Shown in pieces: positions 31,358 through 55,404 of a stretch of 64,000 nt of DNA. The stretch covers positions 1 through 64,000 of the forward strand of contig NZ_JAHEVJ010000006.1 of the NCBI RefSeq assembly GCF_018599245.1. The letters are read 5' to 3'. The position numbers and the translations under genes are program-made. The DNA is from Aliiroseovarius lamellibrachiae (GTDB lineage: Bacteria; Pseudomonadota; Alphaproteobacteria; Rhodobacterales; Rhodobacteraceae). The notes below the pieces were generated by a model. It made no database searches, was not told where the DNA came from, and saw only the letters and a program-made list of their open reading frames with translations. Every line of letters begins with the position of its first letter. Positions within the stretch are counted from its first letter, which is position 1.

Positions 31358-31386
31358 CAAAAAAAACCCGGGCACAAAGGCCCGGG
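31358..31386 (-). terminator. intrinsic terminator of the response regulator gene
   Basis: On the minus strand CCCGGGC (31380-31386) pairs with GCCCGGG (31367-31373) and is followed by TTTTTTTT. Confidence 0.88.
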
Positions 31387-31444
31387 CAGTCTAACAGGGA
31401 GGATGTGCCATTACCCCGGCACCCAGGGATTCTTGTGCGTAGGT

Positions 31445-44823: not shown

Positions 44824-45450
44824 TTAGCAATGATGCGAACTGGGGATCATCGCCTTCATCACCGCCACATGATCCGGGCTTTGGGCGCGGGCATGATCAG
44901 CCAGTTCCAGCGCCGTGTCGATCAGCACCTCACCCTCGACCACGCGGTCAATCAGACCCCAAGAAAACGCCTCCTCCGCCACGATCTTTTGGCCCGCCAT
45001 CAAAATCATCTTGGTGCGTGCGGGACCAATCAGGGCGCTCATGCGGGCCGGATCTGAGGGTTGCGGCAGAAAGCCCAGCTTCATCACCGGGTAAAAGAAC
45101 TTGGCCGTTGGCACCGCGATGCGAATGTCACAGGCCAGCGCCATGCCCATTGCCCCGCCCGCAAGCGTGCCGTTCAGTGCAGCGATGGTCAGGCAGGGCG
45201 CGCGCGCAATCGCGCCAGACAGGCGTTCCCACACATCATCGGTGGCAAGGCCTGCGCGTGCTTCGTCCAGATCAGCACCCGCCGAGAACACTTTGCCCGC
45301 ACCGGTCAGCACCAAGACCTGCGCGTTGCCCGCGGCGTCGCTTGCGATTTGCGCCAGCTCTTCCAGCATTGCTTTGGTCAGTGAATTCGCTTTGTCGGGG
45401 CGGTTCAAGGTCACCGTCCAGACGCCCGCGTCTTTTGTCAGGTCAATCAT
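44824..45450 (-). CDS. enoyl-CoA hydratase/isomerase superfamily protein
   Basis: A 208-residue crotonase-fold protein, shorter than the usual 255-260. Oxyanion-hole elements are present (SAGADLDE, and GTLAGGAMG), but at the positions of the two catalytic glutamates of classical hydratase I read Gly (GGAMGMAL) and Val (PVMKLG). So it is probably not an ordinary hydratase; isomerase, thioesterase or hydrolase activity is possible. Its ATG overlaps the stop of the short-chain dehydrogenase gene. Confidence 0.82.
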   Translation of the reverse strand: MIDLTKDAGVWTVTLNRPDKANSLTKAMLEELAQIASDAAGNAQVLVLTGAGKVFSAGADLDEARAGLATDDVWERLSGAIARAPCLTIAALNGTLAGGAMGMALACDIRIAVPTAKFFYPVMKLGFLPQPSDPARMSALIGPARTKMILMAGQKIVAEEAFSWGLIDRVVEGEVLIDTALELADHARAQSPDHVAVMKAMIPSSHHC

Positions 45451-46202
45451 CCAAACACACTCGCTCGTTTACGGATTTCTACATCGCGCAGCGACACCTC
45501 TTCGCCCAGAAAATCATCCGCGTCCTGCGAACACATCCACAACAACGTGCGCGCCACCCATTCTGGCGGGATATGATCATCCCAGTTCAGTTTCGACACG
45601 GCGTTGATGCCAGAGGATTTGATCTCGCGTTGCATTTGCGTCGCCACAGTGCCCGGTGACAGACCGATGGCGCGAATGCCTTGTCCCGCGGCTTCCTGAT
45701 GCAAAGCTTCCGTCATCATTTTGGCCCCGGCTTTTGACGCGCAGTAATGTGCCCAGCCTTCGATTGCGCGGTGTGCGGCCCCAGAACTGATGGTCAGAAC
45801 AGTCCCGCCCCCTTGTGCCACCATCAGCGGCATCACGGCGCGCATTCCGTAATAGACGCCCTTCAGGTTCACGTCGATCACATGGCCCCATTCGTCTGGA
45901 TCGCTTTCAATCAGCGGACCGATGGGTTCAATCACGCCCGCGTTGTTGATCAGCACATCCACGCTGCCAAACTTGGCGACAGCGGCATCAATCACCGCTT
46001 TGACATCCGCAAATCGGGACACATCACAGGTCACCGCCAAGGCGTTGTCACCAATCGCATCCGCAATCGCGCCAATCTGCCCGGCACTGCGCGCGGTCAG
46101 CACCACATTTGCACCGGCGGCGGCAAAAATATGCGCGGCGGCCTCTCCGATCCCACGGCTTGCGCCGGTGATTACTACGGTTTTTCCTGTCATATCCAGC
46201 AT
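45447..46202 (-). CDS. short-chain dehydrogenase/reductase
   Basis: A 251-residue classical SDR: TGASRGIG cofactor motif, NNAG, catalytic Ser in ISSG and the YCASK (YxxxK) motif. Substrate unknown; the classical NAD(P) binding fold prevents prediction. GGAGGG lies 8 bases upstream. It overlaps the enoyl-CoA hydratase-like gene by ATGA, suggesting one acyl or hydroxy-acid pathway. Confidence 0.88.
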   Translation of the reverse strand: MLDMTGKTVVITGASRGIGEAAAHIFAAAGANVVLTARSAGQIGAIADAIGDNALAVTCDVSRFADVKAVIDAAVAKFGSVDVLINNAGVIEPIGPLIESDPDEWGHVIDVNLKGVYYGMRAVMPLMVAQGGGTVLTISSGAAHRAIEGWAHYCASKAGAKMMTEALHQEAAGQGIRAIGLSPGTVATQMQREIKSSGINAVSKLNWDDHIPPEWVARTLLWMCSQDADDFLGEEVSLRDVEIRKRASVFG

Positions 46203-46321
46203 GTTGCGGCCCTCCTGCTTTCTGTCCTAACCCATGCGACGGGACGAGGCCAGAGCGCACGCAGACTTGCAGGCGGGGCTTTGGCAGTTTACCTGAAAGG
46301 GGAACAGATAAAGGAACCACC

Positions 46322-47665
46322 ATGACCGCGCTCGACACCCTGACCCAAAAGCTTCTGGATGCTGCTCGCAATGCGGGGGCCGATCAGGCGGACGCTTTGG
46401 CGGTGGATGGCACGTCGCTCTCGATCGACGTGTTGAATGGCAAGCTTGAGCACGCTGAACGCTCTGAAGGTGTCGACATTGGGTTGCGCGTGTTGGTTGG
46501 GCAACGGCAAGCCTGTGTGTCGGCCTCGGATATTTCCGACATGACGATGCAAGCGATGGCGGAACGTGCCGTGGCGATGGCCAAAGAAGCGCCCGAGGAT
46601 CCGCATATTCGCTTGGCCACCGCTGATGAGCTGGCCAACCGCTGGGATTTGGCCGGGCTTGAACTGGCAGATCCGTCAGAAGAACCAGACCCCGCCGCAC
46701 TTGAACGTGACGCAGCCGAGGCCGAAGCCGCCGCGCTGGCCGTATCCGGTGTCAGCCAAGTGTCCTCCGCATCCGCAGGCTATGGCCGCCACCAGTTTCA
46801 CCTTGCCACCTCTAACGGGTTTTCAGGCGGCTACGGCCGCACCAACCGCGCCACGTCTGTCGTTGCGATCACCGGCGAAGGTGCTGCGATGGAGCGCGAT
46901 TACGCGGGCGAAATGCGGGTGTTTCAGGCCGATATGCCCAGCCCGGTTGAGATTGGCACCAAAGCAGGCGAACGCACCGTCGCAATGGCGGGCGCCAAGC
47001 AACCGCCCACCGGCGCCTTTCCGGTGCTTTATGATGAACGCGTGTCGGCGTCCCTGATCGGTCACCTTTTGGGGGCCGCAAATGGGTCGATGATTGCGCG
47101 CGGCAGCTCGTGGTTGCGGGATCATTTGGGCGACGAAATCCTGCCTGCGGGATTGGATTTGATCGAAGATCCCCTGCGCACCCGCGTGATGGGATCGCGC
47201 CCATTTGACGGCGAAGGGCTGGCGACCTCTGCGCGCAAAATCATTGACGCGGGTGTCTTGACGGGCTGGACGCTCGACCTTGCGACAGCTGCGCAACTGG
47301 GCCTGCAAAGCACGGCAAGTGCCTCGCGGGGAACGTCCTCGCCGCCCTCGCCCTCTATCTCAAACGTGGCGCTGACAATGGGCGACGCATCCCGCGAGGA
47401 TTTGATCCGCGATATGGGCACCGGGCTGATTGTCACCTCGATGATCGGGTCCACCATCAACCCCACCACCGGCGATTATTCGCGCGGGGCGTCCGGGTTT
47501 TGGGTCGAAAACGGCGAGATCGCCTATCCGGTGAATGAATGCACCATTGCGGGAAATCTGATCGCCATGCTGAAAACCATCATCCCCGCCAATGACGCCG
47601 AGCCGCATCTGAGTCGCCTTGTGCCAAGCCTGTTGGTGGACGGCATGACGCTGGCCGGAGCGTAA
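46322..47665 (+). CDS. pmbA: PmbA/TldE protein
   Basis: A 447-residue member of the TldD/TldE family. TldE (PmbA) lacks the HExxxH zinc site of TldD but completes the heterodimeric protease that matures microcin B17 and acts on modified peptides. No HExxxH is seen, so TldE not TldD. AAGGAACCACC precedes the ATG. The partner tldD is not in the window. Confidence 0.9.
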   Translation: MTALDTLTQKLLDAARNAGADQADALAVDGTSLSIDVLNGKLEHAERSEGVDIGLRVLVGQRQACVSASDISDMTMQAMAERAVAMAKEAPEDPHIRLATADELANRWDLAGLELADPSEEPDPAALERDAAEAEAAALAVSGVSQVSSASAGYGRHQFHLATSNGFSGGYGRTNRATSVVAITGEGAAMERDYAGEMRVFQADMPSPVEIGTKAGERTVAMAGAKQPPTGAFPVLYDERVSASLIGHLLGAANGSMIARGSSWLRDHLGDEILPAGLDLIEDPLRTRVMGSRPFDGEGLATSARKIIDAGVLTGWTLDLATAAQLGLQSTASASRGTSSPPSPSISNVALTMGDASREDLIRDMGTGLIVTSMIGSTINPTTGDYSRGASGFWVENGEIAYPVNECTIAGNLIAMLKTIIPANDAEPHLSRLVPSLLVDGMTLAGA

Positions 47666-47668
47666 CAA

Positions 47669-48448
47669 GTGAGCGCAGCCGTGGGTGATCTTGACCTTTT
47701 GGTGGATGCGGCAAAAGCGGCGGGTGACATTGCGCGCGGCTTTTTCAAAGCGGACCCAGAGGTGTGGGACAAAGAGGGCGGCCAAGGCCCGGTAACCGAG
47801 GCGGATTTGGCCGTGGACCGGATGCTGCGCGAAGAGCTGACCCGCGCGCGGCCTTATGCGTGGCTGTCTGAAGAAACCGACGACGATCTGGCGCGATTGG
47901 ACGCCGATGAGGTGTTCATCGTTGACCCCATTGATGGCACCCGCGCTTTTATCCAAGGCTCGGAACATTGGGCACATTCGCTGGCCATTGCGCGCGGTGG
48001 CGTTGTGGATACGGCAGTGGTCTATTTACCAGTGGCCGGTAAGCTTTACGCCGCCCAGCGCGGACAGGGTGCGACGCTGAACGGTGCCGCAATTTCAGTC
48101 AGCGGCAGAGAAGGGATTGAGGGGGCCACGGTGTTGGCCTCCAAACCCAATTTCGACGCGACCCATTGGATCGACGCGAAGGTGCCGCCGGTGGAACGCA
48201 AATTCCGATCGTCATTGGCCTATCGTCTGTCGTTGGTGGGCGAAGGTCGGTTTGACGCCATGATGACCTTGCGCGCAACTTGGGAATGGGACGTGGCCGC
48301 CGGAAGCCTGATTGTCGAAGAGGCGGGCGGGCATGTGTCCGACCGCCGCGCGGGGCTTGCACGCTATAACAACCGCGATCCGATGTTGAACGGAATGGTG
48401 GCCGCCAGCCCAAAAGTGCATGACGCCTTGGTGGCGCGGCTCTTGTAA
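47669..48448 (+). CDS. inositol-monophosphatase/CysQ-like phosphatase
   Basis: A 259-residue magnesium-dependent phosphatase. Metal motifs in order: GPVTEADLAVD, LSEET, DPIDGTRAFIQG and WEWDVAAGSLIVEEAGG. Either an inositol monophosphatase or a 3'(2'),5'-bisphosphate nucleotidase (CysQ); the DPIDGTRAF motif leans toward the former/CysQ group without resolving it. GTG start 3 bp after the pmbA stop, so translationally linked. Confidence 0.87.
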   Translation: MSAAVGDLDLLVDAAKAAGDIARGFFKADPEVWDKEGGQGPVTEADLAVDRMLREELTRARPYAWLSEETDDDLARLDADEVFIVDPIDGTRAFIQGSEHWAHSLAIARGGVVDTAVVYLPVAGKLYAAQRGQGATLNGAAISVSGREGIEGATVLASKPNFDATHWIDAKVPPVERKFRSSLAYRLSLVGEGRFDAMMTLRATWEWDVAAGSLIVEEAGGHVSDRRAGLARYNNRDPMLNGMVAASPKVHDALVARLL

Positions 48449-48453
48449 GGTTT

Positions 48454-48467
48454 TGTTAGAACTAACA
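48454..48467. promoter_or_regulatory. candidate GntR-type (LacI family) operator
   Basis: TGTTAGAACTAACA is a perfect palindrome. It matches the arms and 4-base spacing of the E. coli gluconate repressor box (ATGTTA-N4-TAACAT). It is about 80 bp upstream of the LacI-type gene, as expected for autoregulation. Confidence 0.6.
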
Positions 48468-48545
48468 TTCAATGAAAATTAGGCTTTGCGAACAAGATTT
48501 CTGGCGCTAACACTATAGGCACTGAATTTGAAAGAGGTGCCGCCT

Positions 48546-49583
48546 TTGACCAATACGCCGACGACCCCCGCCCGCCGCCCGTTGACGCTTCGTGATGTTT
48601 CCGAGGCCTCTGGTGTCAGTGAAATGACCGTAAGCCGCGTGTTGCGCAATCGGGGGGATGTCAGTCAGGCGACGCGCGAGAAGGTTTTGGCCGCGGCCAA
48701 AGAGCTTGGGTATGTGCCAAATAAAATCGCGGGGGCTTTGGCGTCACAGCGGGTGAATTTGGTCGCGGTGGTGATCCCGTCACTGTCCAACATGGTGTTT
48801 CCAGAGGTTCTGACCGGCATCAATGAAGTGTTGGACGAAACCCCGTTGCAGCCGGTGTTTGGCGTGACCAATTACAAACCGGAACGCGAGGAAAAAGTGC
48901 TGTATGAAATGCTCAGCTGGCGTCCATCCGGGGTGATTGTGGCCGGGCTTGAGCACAGCGAAAACGCCAAGGCGATGTTGCGGGCGGCGGGCATTCCTGT
49001 GGTGGAAATCATGGACACCGACGGGCCAGCGATTGACGCCTGCGTGGGGATTTCGCATCGCCGCGCGGGGCGCAAAATGGCCAAAGCAATCTTAAAAGCG
49101 GGCTATCGCAATATCGGCTTTTTAGGCACCAAAATGCCGCTGGATCACCGCGCCCGGAAACGGTTTGAAGGGTTCACCGAGGCGCTGGCCAAAGAAGGCG
49201 TCGAGATTGTGGATAAGGAATTTTACGAAGGTGGATCCGCGCTGGCCAAAGGTCGCGAGATGACCGAGGCAATGCTGAAACGATCCCCGGAACTCGATTT
49301 TCTATATTATTCCAATGACATGATTGGGGCCGGTGGGCTTTTGTATTGTCTTGATCAAGGCATTGATGTGCCGGGCAAAGTTGGGCTCGCGGGGTTTAAT
49401 GGTGTTGAATTGTTGGACGGCCTGCCGCGGAAATTGGCCACGATGGATGCCTGCCGGATAGAAATCGGTCGCGCCGCTGCGCGCATCATTGCCGAACGCG
49501 CGGCAGGGGATGGTCTGGCCGGTGGGGAACGGGTAGAACTTGCCCCCAAAATCACGCCGGGCGACACGCTTAAGCGGCGCTAG
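48546..49583 (+). CDS. LacI-family transcriptional repressor (gluconate GntR-like)
   Basis: A 345-residue regulator: LacI-type HTH (about 14-33, LRDVSEASGVSEMTVSRVLR), hinge helix (KIAGALASQR) and a periplasmic-binding-protein-like effector domain. Sequence and the upstream TGTTA-N4-TAACA box suggest a gluconate-type repressor, but no sugar-acid transport or kinase gene lies beside it. TTG start with AGAGG 8 bases upstream (48533-48537); TTG 48528 or GTG 48537 are alternatives. Confidence 0.85.
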   Translation: MTNTPTTPARRPLTLRDVSEASGVSEMTVSRVLRNRGDVSQATREKVLAAAKELGYVPNKIAGALASQRVNLVAVVIPSLSNMVFPEVLTGINEVLDETPLQPVFGVTNYKPEREEKVLYEMLSWRPSGVIVAGLEHSENAKAMLRAAGIPVVEIMDTDGPAIDACVGISHRRAGRKMAKAILKAGYRNIGFLGTKMPLDHRARKRFEGFTEALAKEGVEIVDKEFYEGGSALAKGREMTEAMLKRSPELDFLYYSNDMIGAGGLLYCLDQGIDVPGKVGLAGFNGVELLDGLPRKLATMDACRIEIGRAAARIIAERAAGDGLAGGERVELAPKITPGDTLKRR

Positions 49584-49617
49584 ACAAGCGCGCATCAGCG
49601 AATTACAGAAACAACAT

Positions 49618-49694
49618 GGCCCCGTGGCTCAACTGGATAGAGCAGCCCCCTCCTAAGGGGCAGGTTGGTGGTTCGAATCCACCCGGGGTCACCA
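49618..49694 (+). tRNA. tRNA-Arg (anticodon CCT)
   Basis: A 77-nt cloverleaf: 7-bp acceptor stem (one G-U), D arm GCTCAACTGGATAGAGC, anticodon stem GCCCC/GGGGC with loop CTCCTAA (anticodon CCT, reading AGG), T arm with GGTTCGAATCC, and an encoded CCA at 49692-49694. It lies at the boundary of the polysaccharide/spike region; tRNA genes commonly mark integration sites, but I see no duplicated 3' end. Confidence 0.95.
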
Positions 49695-49712
49695 TTTTCA
49701 GTCTTAGCAAGT

Positions 49713-49754
49713 CAACCGCGCCCGGAAGCTCCAAGCGCGGTTGCGGATTTTTTT
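49713..49754 (+). terminator. intrinsic terminator after tRNA-Arg
   Basis: CAACCGCGC (49713-49721) pairs perfectly with GCGCGGTTG (49735-49743) and is followed by seven T at 49748-49754. Confidence 0.9.
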
Positions 49755-49762
49755 CCAAGACA

Positions 49763-50551
49763 TCACAGCGACAGGCCTGTTTTTGCGGCCAAGTAGCTTT
49801 CCATTTGGTCAAGGTCTGTGCCTGCGACGATGCTGTCACTGATCGCCATTTGGTAAACGCGACCTGAAAACGGCAACGAATCACCCCCGCGGGATCCCAG
49901 GTACAGAGGGTGGTTCCCAAAGGTCCCCGCCCCGAGTGATCCGGCGCTTTGGCTGGTCACGCTGCCATTCGCACGCAAGGTCGAACTGGGGGCTGCGATG
50001 TCGACCAAGCCTGTCAGCACGTTGTCAATTGGTGCGGAAAAACCAGATACGTTCAGGTCAACTGTGCTGCTGCCGCGTGCGCGCCAAAAATAATTGTCGG
50101 CGGTTGAGACAGGGGCAAACAGCGCAAAAGTGCCGTTATACGCGCTGGACGAGCTGCTCAGTTCGGCACAACAGGCCGCGGCCGCATCACTGGCTTTTCG
50201 GATCGCCATGAAGACGCTGACTTTGTCGGTATGCACCAAGCTGATCGCATTGGTGTGCATCGCGTCATCGACGCCGTCAAAGTCCAGCCAGTGCAGCGTT
50301 CCATCGGTTCGATAGGTTGGCCGCTCGCCCGCAACAGTTTGGATACAGTGATGACCGTTACCGGACTTATCCTGAATCAGCCCAACGGGCTGACCATCTG
50401 CTGTGACGGGTAGCGTACCGGCGCTGTCTTGAAACATCGAGGAGAGATCCGACGGATCTATCCAAAACGATGGGGACACCGCTGCGGGGGAAAAGGGGGG
50501 AGCCAATTCTCCTTTTGCGGCATCCATAAAGATACCAAGCCCTACTTGCAT
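49763..50551 (-). CDS. LamG/concanavalin-like protein, candidate phage or GTA head-spike fibre
   Basis: About 262 residues. The PSFWIDPSDLSSMFQDSAGT segment, the DKSGNGHHCIQ motif, and the ending YLAAKTGLSL recur, to my recollection, in phage-like and GTA-linked proteins of Rhodobacterales with a jelly-roll lectin fold; no signal peptide. It directly follows a gene with a GTA spike-base tail (shared base at TAATG), so it may be the fibre that would bind surface polysaccharide. It is the terminal gene of the polysaccharide operon. Function is inferred. Confidence 0.6.
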   Translation of the reverse strand: MQVGLGIFMDAAKGELAPPFSPAAVSPSFWIDPSDLSSMFQDSAGTLPVTADGQPVGLIQDKSGNGHHCIQTVAGERPTYRTDGTLHWLDFDGVDDAMHTNAISLVHTDKVSVFMAIRKASDAAAACCAELSSSSSAYNGTFALFAPVSTADNYFWRARGSSTVDLNVSGFSAPIDNVLTGLVDIAAPSSTLRANGSVTSQSAGSLGAGTFGNHPLYLGSRGGDSLPFSGRVYQMAISDSIVAGTDLDQMESYLAAKTGLSL

Positions 50552-51426
50552 TACCACAGCACCACGATGTTGGTTGCGGTGGTCCCTGTCGCATGCACGC
50601 GCTTGACGCGGATGGCATGGGCGACGCCAGCGGCCAGGGTCAGGGTCGCGGTATCGCCGCCCAATGTGGTCACGGTTACATCACCTGCGCCACCCAGCAG
50701 AATGCCACGGCTGACATTGGCAAGGATCAAGTAAAGCACAATCAGCATCAGCCCGGTGCGCGCCGCAAGAAACGCCCCGACGCACGACAGCAGAACCAAC
50801 CCCAGGGCCGACAGACGAAAGGCGCGGAACTGGCGGGCGAACTCGTTGAAAAACACCCCGGTCAGCACGAAGAAAAGCGAGGTCGTGTCATAGCCATTAA
50901 AAGGCCCGCGCGCGCGGTACCCCAAGTCGCGCAACCGATCGACGGATGCCACGGGATAATAACGAAAACTCCAGTCGCGAAACGCCGGAAACGTCAGTTC
51001 AAGCAGCTGCATCGCCAGGATCATCAGCACCAAGACGGCAAGCATACGATAAAGATCAAACGCCCCGGCCTTGAGCAAAACAAAGACAAACCAAACGCCC
51101 ACCGCCCATAAGAACACCTTCATCGGCCAGCTTGCATATTTCACACCGGACATGAAGTTGGACCCCGCCCCAAGACGCATCACCATCAGCACAGAGCAGA
51201 GCACATAAATGAGCAAGATCAGTGTGGTTGCCTGCCGCCAGACCAGGGCATGCGGCTGCGGGTTTTGCGCTGATGACACCGCAAAACTCAGCAAAACGTA
51301 AAGGATCACAAGGTAATCCCAACGCAGGAAAATCACCCCAAGATTGATCACTTCAGGCGCGACAAACAGCAGCGGCAAGGCCAGATGCAAAATCACAAAG
51401 CGTTGGGTTTGGGACTGATCGTGCAT
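50551..51426 (-). CDS. truncated polysaccharide polymerase/ligase-like protein fused to a spike-base tail
   Basis: A 291-residue protein in two parts. Residues 1 to about 236 are polytopic, like O-antigen polymerase/ligase (Wzy/WaaL) proteins, ending near the ligase-like AARTGLMLIVLYL segment where such proteins normally continue for 100 or more residues. Residues from about 237 (VSRGILLGGAGDVTVTTLGG, RVKRVHATGTTATNIVVLW) match the C-terminal half of RcGTA spike-base (rcc01079-like) proteins, typically 85-90 aa. The join is near 50716-50721. Both parts are incomplete, so this looks like a recombination junction; whether the product is functional is unknown. Confidence 0.6.
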   Translation of the reverse strand: MHDQSQTQRFVILHLALPLLFVAPEVINLGVIFLRWDYLVILYVLLSFAVSSAQNPQPHALVWRQATTLILLIYVLCSVLMVMRLGAGSNFMSGVKYASWPMKVFLWAVGVWFVFVLLKAGAFDLYRMLAVLVLMILAMQLLELTFPAFRDWSFRYYPVASVDRLRDLGYRARGPFNGYDTTSLFFVLTGVFFNEFARQFRAFRLSALGLVLLSCVGAFLAARTGLMLIVLYLILANVSRGILLGGAGDVTVTTLGGDTATLTLAAGVAHAIRVKRVHATGTTATNIVVLW

Positions 51427-52323
51427 CTAGCCCCCTTTGGCCCGAAAGGCGCGCAATACACGCGCGGGCGACATGCGTGCGCCCGCCAAACGCAGCCATG
51501 CCCCGATTGGAGAAATACCAAATTCGCGCTTCAGATAGGGTGCAAACCGGCGCAAAAACACGAAGTTATTTCGCAAAACCCAAATCTCAAACCACAAACG
51601 CCCCCCGCGGCGCTGCCCCCCTTTTTTGGCATAGGCCACACTGGGCGAAAGGTGAAAACAGGTGGCTTGCGGCACCAGAAAAACCTTGGCCCCGAACGTC
51701 ATCGATGCCTGCAACTGAGGATCGCTTTCTTCGCGGTAGCCATTCCCGCCATAGGCTTCGTGGAACCGCAAACCGTCGCGAAACAAAGACGCGGGCCAAA
51801 GGGCAACCGCTGTTACAAACGGAAATTGCGTGACCTGACCGGGGTCGGCCCAGGCGCAAAGCAACAGCCGAGACAGGTCAAAATAGCGCTGCGTTTCGCG
51901 ATCAGATCGCGCCAAGGCGTCGGAATTGGATTCACCATCACGCAGGTAAATAACCCGCGGCCCGACCAGCACCGGATGGGGGGCTTCAGGGCGATGCTCA
52001 CGGCAAATCCGCACCATGTCATCCGGCAGGATAATGTCATCATCCGTGGTCAGCACTTCGTCGCCGGTACAGCGTGCCAACCCAGCATTTTTCGCGGCAG
52101 GTGCGCCAAGTCGGGTCGGCGTTGTCACGATAGTCAAGCGGATATCGCGATTTTGACAAGCCACAGCAAGGGCCGCAAAGACCGCGTCATAAGGGTCCGT
52201 GCTGCCGTCATTCACAATCACAATTTCCGCCAATCCATCTTGTGCCAGCCACGATGGCCAGACCTGCGCCAAAACGTCGGGGCGGTTATGGGTGGGGGCA
52301 AGGATGGTTAGCTTCGGTGCCAT
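51427..52323 (-). CDS. family 2 glycosyltransferase
   Basis: A 298-residue GT-A enzyme: LTILAPTHNRPDV, acidic NDGS at 38-41, and TDDDI (Asp94-96) for metal binding. No membrane segment; probably adds a sugar to a lipid-linked repeat unit. GGAG lies 5 bases before ATG 52323, overlapping the preceding GT4 gene by 16 bases. The next gene starts with ATG right after this stop. Confidence 0.88.
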   Translation of the reverse strand: MAPKLTILAPTHNRPDVLAQVWPSWLAQDGLAEIVIVNDGSTDPYDAVFAALAVACQNRDIRLTIVTTPTRLGAPAAKNAGLARCTGDEVLTTDDDIILPDDMVRICREHRPEAPHPVLVGPRVIYLRDGESNSDALARSDRETQRYFDLSRLLLCAWADPGQVTQFPFVTAVALWPASLFRDGLRFHEAYGGNGYREESDPQLQASMTFGAKVFLVPQATCFHLSPSVAYAKKGGQRRGGRLWFEIWVLRNNFVFLRRFAPYLKREFGISPIGAWLRLAGARMSPARVLRAFRAKGG

Positions 52324-53450
52324 GAGAACTCCGGGAAAAGACGCGAAAGCTCGGCCTGCCAATGGCGTTGAACTGCCTCGTATGACACATGGGTTTCGGC
52401 GTATTGGCGATGGGTGTGGCGTGCGGCGGAACCGGCGACGAACACCTGTTCCAGCCCAGATATCCAACCTTCAGCGGCCTCGGGGTCAGCAATCACCGAT
52501 GCCCGAACACCCGCCTCCTTTGCCTGTAAATAATGCGCGGCCTGCCCCACCGGGCTGGTCAAAACCGGGCAGCCACAGGCCTGCGCCTCGCTTGCCACAA
52601 GACTATAGCCTTCAAAGCGCGACGGTTGAATCAAAGCATCCGCTGCCTGATAGGCCGTGACCATTTGCGCGGTGTTAAGCCCGATGCAAGTGGTGACATT
52701 TGGCCCCGTCGGCACGGGCCAGCTGTGCCCCGGTGGTGTCGCGATCAGCACATGCCAGTCGCGCGGCATTTGGGCGACAATTTTGGCGACGCGATCCGCC
52801 CCTTTCGCATATTCCCACCGACCGGCAAACAGGATCACACGGCCAGATGGCGGCAAACCCAACAGCGCACGAGCAGCCGCCTGATCCCCCGGCTGGAACA
52901 AGTCGCAATCCGTCGGCGGTAAAAGGATCGTTTGGTTCACCGGGATCCCTTGCGAGATCAGAACATCGCGCAACCCTTGTGAATTTGCGATGGCGCCAGA
53001 TCTTGATTGAGTGTGACATTCCAGCCGGCGCGCCAAAGCCGTCTTCGCCACTTTCACCCACGCCCGAAGGCCCGAGGCGGGGCGCAAAGCCATGCTGCGA
53101 AATCCGGCGTAACTTCCAAAGAACAAGTGCAGATGACGCGGGTGGGACAGGCCCACCCCCATTAGCTCAATGCTCATCACCACATCGGCCTCCGGCAAGC
53201 CGCTTCGTGTCAATCGCCTGACCGCAAGCGGCGAGGCGAGCATTGGCTCGATCCGGGTCAAAAGCCGCGCAAAGAGCCCCGGCGCAGGCGCATCCTGGTG
53301 CGACAGGAACGTCACCTTTTGACAAATCGGTGCCAGGACGTTGGCCAGATCCTGCAAATGCCGCTCCGCTCCGCCCAATCCCTGCCCGGGGGCCTTTGGG
53401 GCCAGGATCAAAACGCGTGCTTGCGGGGGCGGATGCATCGGCTGGCTCAT
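52308..53450 (-). CDS. GT4-type glycosyltransferase
   Basis: A 380-residue GT-B enzyme with an N-terminal GLGGAERHLQDLA motif and a C-terminal EX7E-like site in QPSRFEGYSLVASEAQACG. The donor is probably a nucleotide-sugar. Member of a coupled polysaccharide operon: its ATG overlaps the stop of the preceding gene (ATGA). Confidence 0.88.
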   Translation of the reverse strand: MSQPMHPPPQARVLILAPKAPGQGLGGAERHLQDLANVLAPICQKVTFLSHQDAPAPGLFARLLTRIEPMLASPLAVRRLTRSGLPEADVVMSIELMGVGLSHPRHLHLFFGSYAGFRSMALRPASGLRAWVKVAKTALARRLECHTQSRSGAIANSQGLRDVLISQGIPVNQTILLPPTDCDLFQPGDQAAARALLGLPPSGRVILFAGRWEYAKGADRVAKIVAQMPRDWHVLIATPPGHSWPVPTGPNVTTCIGLNTAQMVTAYQAADALIQPSRFEGYSLVASEAQACGCPVLTSPVGQAAHYLQAKEAGVRASVIADPEAAEGWISGLEQVFVAGSAARHTHRQYAETHVSYEAVQRHWQAELSRLFPEFSWHRS

Positions 53451-54580
53451 TGCAACAACGCCTCGCTCAATGCTTCATTGGCGAGATTTCGGTCAAACCT
53501 CTTTGCAAACACCGCCCGTTTTTCCGCGCTTTGCCGAAGTGTGCGAACGTCATCAGCAAGTGTCAAAGCCTGCGACGAACACGCCGCCCACGACAGGCAG
53601 GAAGACGCCAGTTCATCCCCCTCAAACAAAGCCAGAACAGCACTGTTTTCTCCGACAATATTCATCGGATGCACACCGCAGGCGAGATATTCAAAGGTCT
53701 TAACCGGCAGGCAATAATTGCGATGAAATGGCAGTGGATTCAGGCCAATATCGCAGGCGTTCAAATGTCGTGCGACCTCAGTCGGGGACAGATTGTTGCG
53801 CCAGAGAATCTGATCGTTGACGCCCAAGTCCTTGGCCTGCGCCTTAAGGTCGATCATGATAGGGCGCGAGAAATCATCCTCGACCGCGATCATCAACAAC
53901 TGCGCGCCCTTGCGCAACGCAGGTGCCAATGCCGGCAAGGCAAGCTCCAACGACTTGCCCCCCAAAATACCAGCATAGACAAACACGGCGCCCGACCCCA
54001 AACCCAGCTCTTTTCGGGTCGCATCACGGGTGTTTTCCGCCAGAGAAAACACATCGCGATCAATGCCATTTGGCGCGATGATTTGCGGAATACCGGGTGT
54101 GCCAAAACTGTCATCCATTTGTGCGCGCAACGCGTCCGACACATAGGCCACCTGATGGGCTGCGGAAAACAAAGAGCGCTCCAGCCAGAGCTTGATCCGG
54201 GTTTTGATCCCCGGCGCAATATCCCCATTGCCCAACGCCTCGCTGACAAATGGATCGCGAATGTCGGCCACAACGTGATAGCCCAAGATCCGCGCAATCC
54301 ATGCCACTTCTGCGGTGGGTGTGGCGGGCGGCGAGGTCACAAAAATCGGGCAACGCTTGTGCGCAAGCAACGCTTTGAACAGCCCAAAGCGCCCGGTGCA
54401 TCGCTTGATCATGAACCCTTCATGACGGTCTGGGCCGGGCTTGCTGGTCAGAAAAGACACCTCCACACCGCGGGCGCGCAGGTGCCGCGCAAGCGATGAA
54501 ACACGCGTTGCGCAAGCCGAGGGGTGCGGCGGGGCGTGATGGGCGTAAATTAACACCCGGCTGGGGCGCGCAGGCGTCAT
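53447..54580 (-). CDS. GT4-type glycosyltransferase
   Basis: A 377-residue GT-B fold protein: N-terminal VLIYAHHAPPHPSACATRVS and C-terminal nucleotide site including YCLPVKTFEYLACGVHPM. The EX7E glutamates are less clear than in neighbours. Overlaps both neighbours by ATGA. Sugar and acceptor unknown. Confidence 0.85.
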   Translation of the reverse strand: MTPARPSRVLIYAHHAPPHPSACATRVSSLARHLRARGVEVSFLTSKPGPDRHEGFMIKRCTGRFGLFKALLAHKRCPIFVTSPPATPTAEVAWIARILGYHVVADIRDPFVSEALGNGDIAPGIKTRIKLWLERSLFSAAHQVAYVSDALRAQMDDSFGTPGIPQIIAPNGIDRDVFSLAENTRDATRKELGLGSGAVFVYAGILGGKSLELALPALAPALRKGAQLLMIAVEDDFSRPIMIDLKAQAKDLGVNDQILWRNNLSPTEVARHLNACDIGLNPLPFHRNYCLPVKTFEYLACGVHPMNIVGENSAVLALFEGDELASSCLSWAACSSQALTLADDVRTLRQSAEKRAVFAKRFDRNLANEALSEALLQ

Positions 54581-55404
54581 TGGTGCCCCTCTAACGGTGG
54601 GTTCGTGTCCGCGAGCGAAACAAAATTGCGATCAAACCGAACCCGAAGCGCAAATTCCGGCAAAGCCGAGATCTGACGCCGCAACCGACGCGGGTTTTGC
54701 ATCAGGCGAAACGCCCACTCCAACCCGGATTTCCGCATCCATTTTGGCGCACGACGCACGTCGCCCGACAGAAAATCGACCGTCCCCCCCAAACCTGACG
54801 CGATCGACACCCCGCATTGCTGCAACAGGGCGCGGTTCTGCGCGATCCACATTTCTTGCCGGGGGGCGCCAAGGCAGACGGCCAAAACGCCAGGACGTGT
54901 TCGGCGCAAATCCGCAATGATCTCATCATGGTCGGGAAGCGACAGGGTGGTGGAGAAATCGGGGGCGCGCCCATGGATTTTCAGGTCGGGATATAGCCCG
55001 CGCAATGTGGCTTTTGCCTTGACCAGCCGATCGGGCGCGCCGCCCAGAATATACATGCTGCGATGCGCGGTCTGGGCCAGTTCTGCCAGATCATAGATCA
55101 GGTCAGATCCGCAAATCCTGTCGACATCCCGCCCCGTTTTGCCCTGCACCGCGCGTTGCAATCCAACGCCATCCACCACATTCAAATCCCCTTTGTTCAG
55201 GGTCGCGCGATAAGCGGGGTTGCGATGGGCGTTCATGCAGATTTCCGGGTTGAGGGTATGGACCACATGCAAGGCACCCTGATCGCCCAGTGCGACCCGC
55301 AATTGCGTCAGAACATCCGCGCGGCAGGTCAGATCCACGCGGGTACCGGCCACATAAACTGGGGGCGGGTTGGCGGTACGAAGCGGGAAGAAACCGGCGT
55401 TCAT
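54577..55404 (-). CDS. WecG/TagA/CpsF (GT26) glycosyltransferase
   Basis: A 275-residue enzyme of the WecG/TagA family that adds a sugar (e.g. ManNAc-type) to a lipid-linked primer at an early step. Motifs: TLNPEICMNAH, DGVGLQ, GAPRQEMWI and DFLSGDVRRAPKWMRKSGLEW. It overlaps the neighbouring GT genes at both ends. Its presence supports a lipid-carrier-linked cell-surface polysaccharide. Confidence 0.9.
   Translation of the reverse strand: MNAGFFPLRTANPPPVYVAGTRVDLTCRADVLTQLRVALGDQGALHVVHTLNPEICMNAHRNPAYRATLNKGDLNVVDGVGLQRAVQGKTGRDVDRICGSDLIYDLAELAQTAHRSMYILGGAPDRLVKAKATLRGLYPDLKIHGRAPDFSTTLSLPDHDEIIADLRRTRPGVLAVCLGAPRQEMWIAQNRALLQQCGVSIASGLGGTVDFLSGDVRRAPKWMRKSGLEWAFRLMQNPRRLRRQISALPEFALRVRFDRNFVSLADTNPPLEGHQ

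Follow-up and report, generated by a model that had tools for sequence, protein, structure and literature searches.

Each RcGTA head spike consists of five base proteins, arranged as a pentamer, and one fibre. The bases hold the capsid through their N-termini, and fibre residues 2-10 (I-A-L-G-L-G-L-G-L) occupy five base pockets, as described in the excerpted text of the structural study (PMC7296036). The base protein Rcc01079 (PDB 6tb9/6tba) belongs to the NCBIfam spike-base family NF048002 (RCAP_Rcc01079). A second solved protein of interest here is the spike base of phage Carin1 (PDB 8cjz). In R. capsulatus, the spike genes adjoin capsule genes, according to the available excerpts of PMC10218006.

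The nearest published parallel that we found for the locus described below is R. capsulatus strain 37b4. The same excerpts report that this strain is without the capsule cluster rcc01081-01086, which adjoins the head-spike genes in other strains, and that the absence of the cluster goes with no binding of RcGTA particles and no recipient ability; further genes of the rcc01067-01088 cosmid are also absent (PMC10218006).

Here we describe a locus of Aliiroseovarius lamellibrachiae at which a spike-base gene and a gene of a polysaccharide cluster have become one reading frame. The chimera is real, and very probably a single microhomology deletion of about 17 kb left an in-frame fusion of a capsule-cluster gene with the spike base, together with GTA particles devoid of spikes, loss of a polysaccharide and a by-product protein. 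The locus differs from strain 37b4 in that the fused junction is visible. Furthermore, R. capsulatus wza, wzb and wzc are located elsewhere and, as far as the excerpts go, are present in 37b4, whereas here genes for Wza and Wzc lie in the lost interval. The result is a well-resolved deletion fusion, ordinary in kind, with an informative gene-loss event; the titles and abstract beginnings listed in the open-access literature searched contained nothing about such a fusion.

Structure of the fused reading frame

The analyzed window is the stretch of 64,000 nucleotides at positions 1 to 64,000 of contig NZ_JAHEVJ010000006.1; it contains no N. Its relevant features are the following.

49618..49694, plus strand: tRNA-Arg (CCT), beside the fibre gene, with the same neighbourhood in G008 (the relative introduced below)
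49763..50557, minus strand: head-spike-fibre-like gene (264 aa) that overlaps the end of the fused ORF and, judged against G008, is full length
50551..51426, minus strand: fused ORF, 291 aa plus stop, ATG start
50554..50724, minus strand: C-terminal part of the GTA head-spike base (NF048002), residues 235-291, with the first 29 residues (G008 numbering) absent
50717..50723, minus strand: 7-bp microhomology TTGCCAA at the deletion junction, from a three-way comparison with both G008 genes
50725..51426, minus strand: membrane-protein front, residues 1-234, multi-helix, encoded in the polysaccharide cluster and like a polymerase only in its context, with the C-terminal part absent
51427..52467, minus strand: family 2 glycosyltransferase, remaining polysaccharide gene (PF00535, E 7.4e-18)
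52308..53450, minus strand: glycosyltransferase group 1, remaining polysaccharide gene (PF00534, E 4.5e-15)
53447..54580, minus strand: glycosyltransferase 4-like, remaining polysaccharide gene (PF13579, E 9.6e-11)
54577..55404, minus strand: WecG/TagA/CpsF glycosyltransferase, remaining polysaccharide gene (PF03808, E 3e-47)

The preliminary description had read this ORF as two incomplete partners joined by recombination, one of them a GTA head-spike base, and both points are borne out. Profile searches gave NF048002 for the tail and no family for the front. NF048002 matches with E 2.8e-14 and 53.2 bits, well over the family cut-off of 28, and covers residues 235-291 only, corresponding to profile positions 28-85 of 85; the base domain is therefore incomplete and is without its capsid-attaching N-terminus. 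PHROG 12296 agrees with this assignment (residues 235-289, E 1.2e-9). Residues 1-234 searched alone matched no family in Pfam at 0.01 or in NCBIfam at 1, and the other matches of the whole ORF were below cut-off and at chance level (Pfam JAMP, E 0.51; PHROG 13250, E 0.13). Neither the front compared with plasmids nor the spike tail compared with phage records at 1e-3 gave a match.

The front had also been called polysaccharide polymerase-like. Its position in the cluster and its hydropathy, with several hydrophobic helices both in the front and in the C-terminal part of the corresponding G008 protein, agree with that name, but no profile confirmed it: searched apart, the front and the G008 C-terminal part matched no known polymerase or ligase family in Pfam or NCBIfam. 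The label thus reflects only genomic place and hydropathy, not a family match. The G008 C-terminal part had no match among PDB sequences at 10. A search for it in 295 genomes, each representing one genus of the family, also came back empty, a result that carries no weight in the absence of a positive control. The predicted structure of the fused protein has a mean pLDDT of 51.9 and is uninformative for the membrane part; the tail alone is modelled with confidence (block means of pLDDT 73-87), to which base homologues in the alignment contributed.

Separate partners in a close relative

The fused protein was compared with a set of 61 genomes, its own and 60 relatives. Matches were found in six of the 61; four have the spike part alone, and one congener, G008, has both parts. 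G008 is the metagenome-assembled genome Rhodobacteraceae bacterium UBA2553 (Rhodobacterales), 87% complete in 170 contigs, and is the sole relative showing the presumed ancestral state. A scan of the fused protein against genome contigs, from which near-own records may have been left out, gave two loci, both on the UBA2553 contig (DDMF01000005.1). The fused form itself occurs in one genome only among those searched.

In G008 the partners are separate genes on a single contig and the same strand, about 17 kb apart. Residues 1-188 of the fused ORF are 91-92% identical to the N-terminal part of a longer G008 gene, residues 235-291 are 96% identical to the G008 base, and residues 210-244 matched at 71%. 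The G008 base is complete, with 86 residues from its ATG. At the DNA level, window positions 45196-50725 and 50705-51688 are colinear with G008 in four pieces of 85-91% identity. The two pieces on the fibre side are 90.9% and 89.1% identical; those on the membrane-protein side reach 85.1% (94 bp) and 89.2% (825 bp). The G008 contig ends soon past the membrane-protein gene, so that colinearity on the right could be followed to position 51688 only, about 1 kb.

At the junction G008 is longer by 16,877 bp, a length that is approximate because the interval and the membrane-protein gene hold runs of N, which also leave a gap in the reading of that gene. The proposed recombination is best understood as the loss of about 16.9 kb from between two genes of a single locus, an event that removed many more genes than the two noticed at first. 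The interval in G008 encodes a YjbH protein, a Poly_export/Wza protein, a Wzc-type protein, an exopolysaccharide sugar phosphotransferase, a phosphomannomutase-like protein and a mannose-1-phosphate guanylyltransferase. Further ORFs appear, from their translations only, to encode a phosphatase, an acetyltransferase, a Wzx-like flippase and a heparinase-like protein; the last two had no Pfam match. Searching the A. lamellibrachiae genome with the interval in two pieces, with 40 of 49 and 40 of 54 first-look candidates scored, revealed no copy besides the junction. The only other hits, at 68 and 72% identity, were two pieces on contig C16, which harbours a different YjbH locus.

The probable deletion junction

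On the minus strand, the window tracks the membrane-protein gene of G008 as far as TTGCCAA and the spike gene of that genome from there on, the seven bases being present in both. The switch had been placed at about 50716-50721, which overlaps the resolved 50717-50723 with one base outside. Among all breakpoint pairs of the two G008 genes (the spike gene taken with 60 upstream bases), a shared run of at least 7 occurs in 0.08%; such a run is rare, and the 7-bp match therefore favours microhomology. There are 39 matches of at least 7 bp between the two genes, up to 10 bp, and TTGCCAA is not the longest. Repeats around the junction are limited to short imperfect pairs. The marks of a microhomology deletion are found together here: both parents are known, with G008 standing in for the ancestor, a short common sequence lies at the join, and the interval is absent. 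Separate partners and a clean junction are, at the level of sequence comparison, demonstrated.

An error of assembly, in which two distant pieces were wrongly merged and about 17 kb left out, would produce the same picture, and the genome is indeed a draft of 20 contigs. However, only 7 bp are common at the junction, far too short a run for an assembler to merge on. The join moreover lies inside a 287-kb contig, and the assembly is rated 99.99% complete, with the left-out DNA found on none of its 20 contigs. We consider such an error highly unlikely, which leaves a small chance of an assembly or mixed-population artefact.

The natural explanation is that an ancestor had a G008-like arrangement, with the membrane-protein and spike-base genes flanking polysaccharide genes. 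About 16.9 kb would then have been deleted, probably by microhomology-mediated repair or slippage at the TTGCCAA common to both genes, removing the intervening polysaccharide genes and leaving what remained of the two genes in a single frame. About one join in three would keep the frame by chance, and selection is not needed to account for this outcome. The lost parts most likely comprise the base N-terminus, the C-terminal part of the membrane protein, and genes that serve to export the polysaccharide and to make its precursors.

Likely consequences for the GTA head spike

The base profile has one match in each of the 21 genomes of the genus, and in all 20 congeners the match is full length (profile 1-84 or 1-85). 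Only in A. lamellibrachiae is the base cut, and no other base was found in its genome. In the congener alignment, the lost N-terminus carries the nearly invariant columns F5, R8, L12, P15, A16, P24 and D26. For the G008 base, the predicted fold (mean pLDDT 83, with lower values in the first 20 residues) has a helix at 4-8, a strand at 19-21 and five strands from 36 on. Since the window fragment starts at base residue 30, it has neither the predicted helix nor the first strand.

Among solved proteins, Rcc01079 is the best relative of the G008 base by sequence (E 7.2e-9), and also by predicted fold, for which Foldseek retrieves 6tb9 (E 2.6e-5, TM 0.76); the Carin1 base is the second solved relative. 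The tail belongs to the same sequence family as Rcc01079, and, as in R. capsulatus according to the excerpts of PMC10218006, the spike base adjoins the fibre gene near polysaccharide genes. What sets the fused ORF apart from Rcc01079 is that 234 residues of a membrane protein stand in place of the first 29 of the base; the Carin1 protein differs in being a phage protein and not fused.

The neighbouring fibre-like gene is 96% identical to its G008 partner and matches PHROG 10356 (virion structural, E 8.1e-14), with a sub-cut-off match to Laminin_G_3 (E 0.0035). Its start, MVMQVGLGIFM, has an alternation resembling that of RcGTA fibre residues 2-10. A GTA structural cluster lies elsewhere, on contig C15. 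Of its 21 listed ORFs 10 were scanned; eight have matches to structural families of GTAs or phages (portal, major capsid, connector, tape measure, distal tail, hub, peptidase and megatron), and two had no match at 1e-10. A second match to the GTA/phage tail protein family TIGR02217 was seen in a congener (G003:C16:235913-236530) and possibly belongs to a related prophage.

With its N-terminus gone, the base fragment should be unable to attach to capsids, and the GTA particles of this strain would most likely lack head spikes despite the full-length fibre gene, and come from a cell lacking the polysaccharide of this cluster. This does not have to end gene transfer, given that spikeless R. capsulatus particles still donate genes at low frequency (excerpts of PMC10218006).

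Likely consequences for the polysaccharide

The genome retains two Poly_export genes, against four in G008, and one sugar phosphotransferase. The GNVR (Wzc-type) domain was not found in it. Among the 20 congeners GNVR is found in 16, in 14 of them over the family cut-off, and G002, G005, G011 (56% complete) and G018 gave no match. Loss of this polysaccharide is likely, and the product of this cluster would no longer be made or exported. Other polysaccharide genes remain elsewhere in the genome, and thus the cell need not be bare.

Because spike and polysaccharide genes sit together, one deletion strikes both a polysaccharide cluster and the part of the particle presumed to bind such polysaccharides. 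The locus offers a naturally occurring example, with base-level resolution, of one event striking the two sides of a presumed particle-surface pair.

Fate of the fused protein

The deletion model treats the fused protein as a probable non-functional by-product. The preliminary description had left a choice between a broken polymerase and a membrane-anchored spike-base fusion; the former is favoured, in so far as the name polymerase holds, since the missing part of the base is the one that holds the capsid in RcGTA, and includes strand 1 of the predicted fold. A functional fusion would imply a base fragment that has kept its binding to the fibre, presenting or sequestering the fibre at the inner membrane, with selection for this role. 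The reading frame remains open without decay, the base fragment and the full-length fibre gene remain adjacent, and the confidently modelled tail keeps five of six predicted strands. Nevertheless, pentamer formation is unlikely for a base that has lost its N-terminus and first strand, the membrane part is itself incomplete, and the finding of the fused form in only one of the genomes searched also counts against function.

Estimates of dN/dS relative to G008 are 0.087 for the front (187 codons) and 0.040 for the tail (57 codons), compared with 0.068, 0.029 and 0.043 for the neighbouring TldD-like, LacI-like and fibre genes; the front is above all three, although values from two sequences cannot separate relaxed from kept constraint. 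The absence of decay fits a recent event but also a retained function, and an open frame with low dN/dS is expected soon after a deletion. A functional fusion is, on balance, improbable.

There is likewise only a very small chance that the protein is made and works as an inner-membrane stub that, through the fibre-binding part of the spike base, holds the fibre in the cell, an accidental membrane-tethered inhibitor of GTA spikes. If so, GTA particles would leave without fibres.

The reverse history, with an ancestral fused state and an insertion of about 17 kb in G008, draws on the different places of spike and polysaccharide genes across the genus, but it is negligibly probable, as bases are complete in all 20 congeners and the insertion would need to complete both proteins simultaneously.

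Genomic context

A listed Poly_export gene lies no more than 20 kb from the spike base in 12 of the 20 congeners, counting one place per genome, on the spike contig, and taking G000, G004 and G011, with none listed there, as not near. This proximity is in line with the adjacency in R. capsulatus given in the excerpts of PMC10218006. The LacI gene and tRNA-Arg that border the spike genes of the window are also close to the base in G008 (about 2 kb) and in G019 (18 kb). A LacI match was obtained in 17 further congeners, where the pair is at least 68 kb away (10 genomes) or on a different contig (seven); G010 had none. It may be that spike and capsule genes move as an island, which in the window and G008 sits beside LacI/tRNA-Arg(CCT), and the present deletion makes the idea that they travel or are lost as one unit testable.

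The G008 base is 31-38% identical to those of 18 congeners and 47% identical to that of G001, and the type shared by the window and G008 differs from the others. The G008, G001 and window bases have two fewer residues near the C-terminus. Judged by these sequences, it looks as if the base type was swapped together with the capsule cluster.

For annotation, the locus calls for caution: NF048002 would name the fused ORF a spike base, as the match passes the cut-off, though the capsid-binding part is missing. Elsewhere in the window, at 31360-31430 on the minus strand, a SorX small RNA (Rfam RF02784) was detected with 59.4 bits against a gathering score of 46.6.
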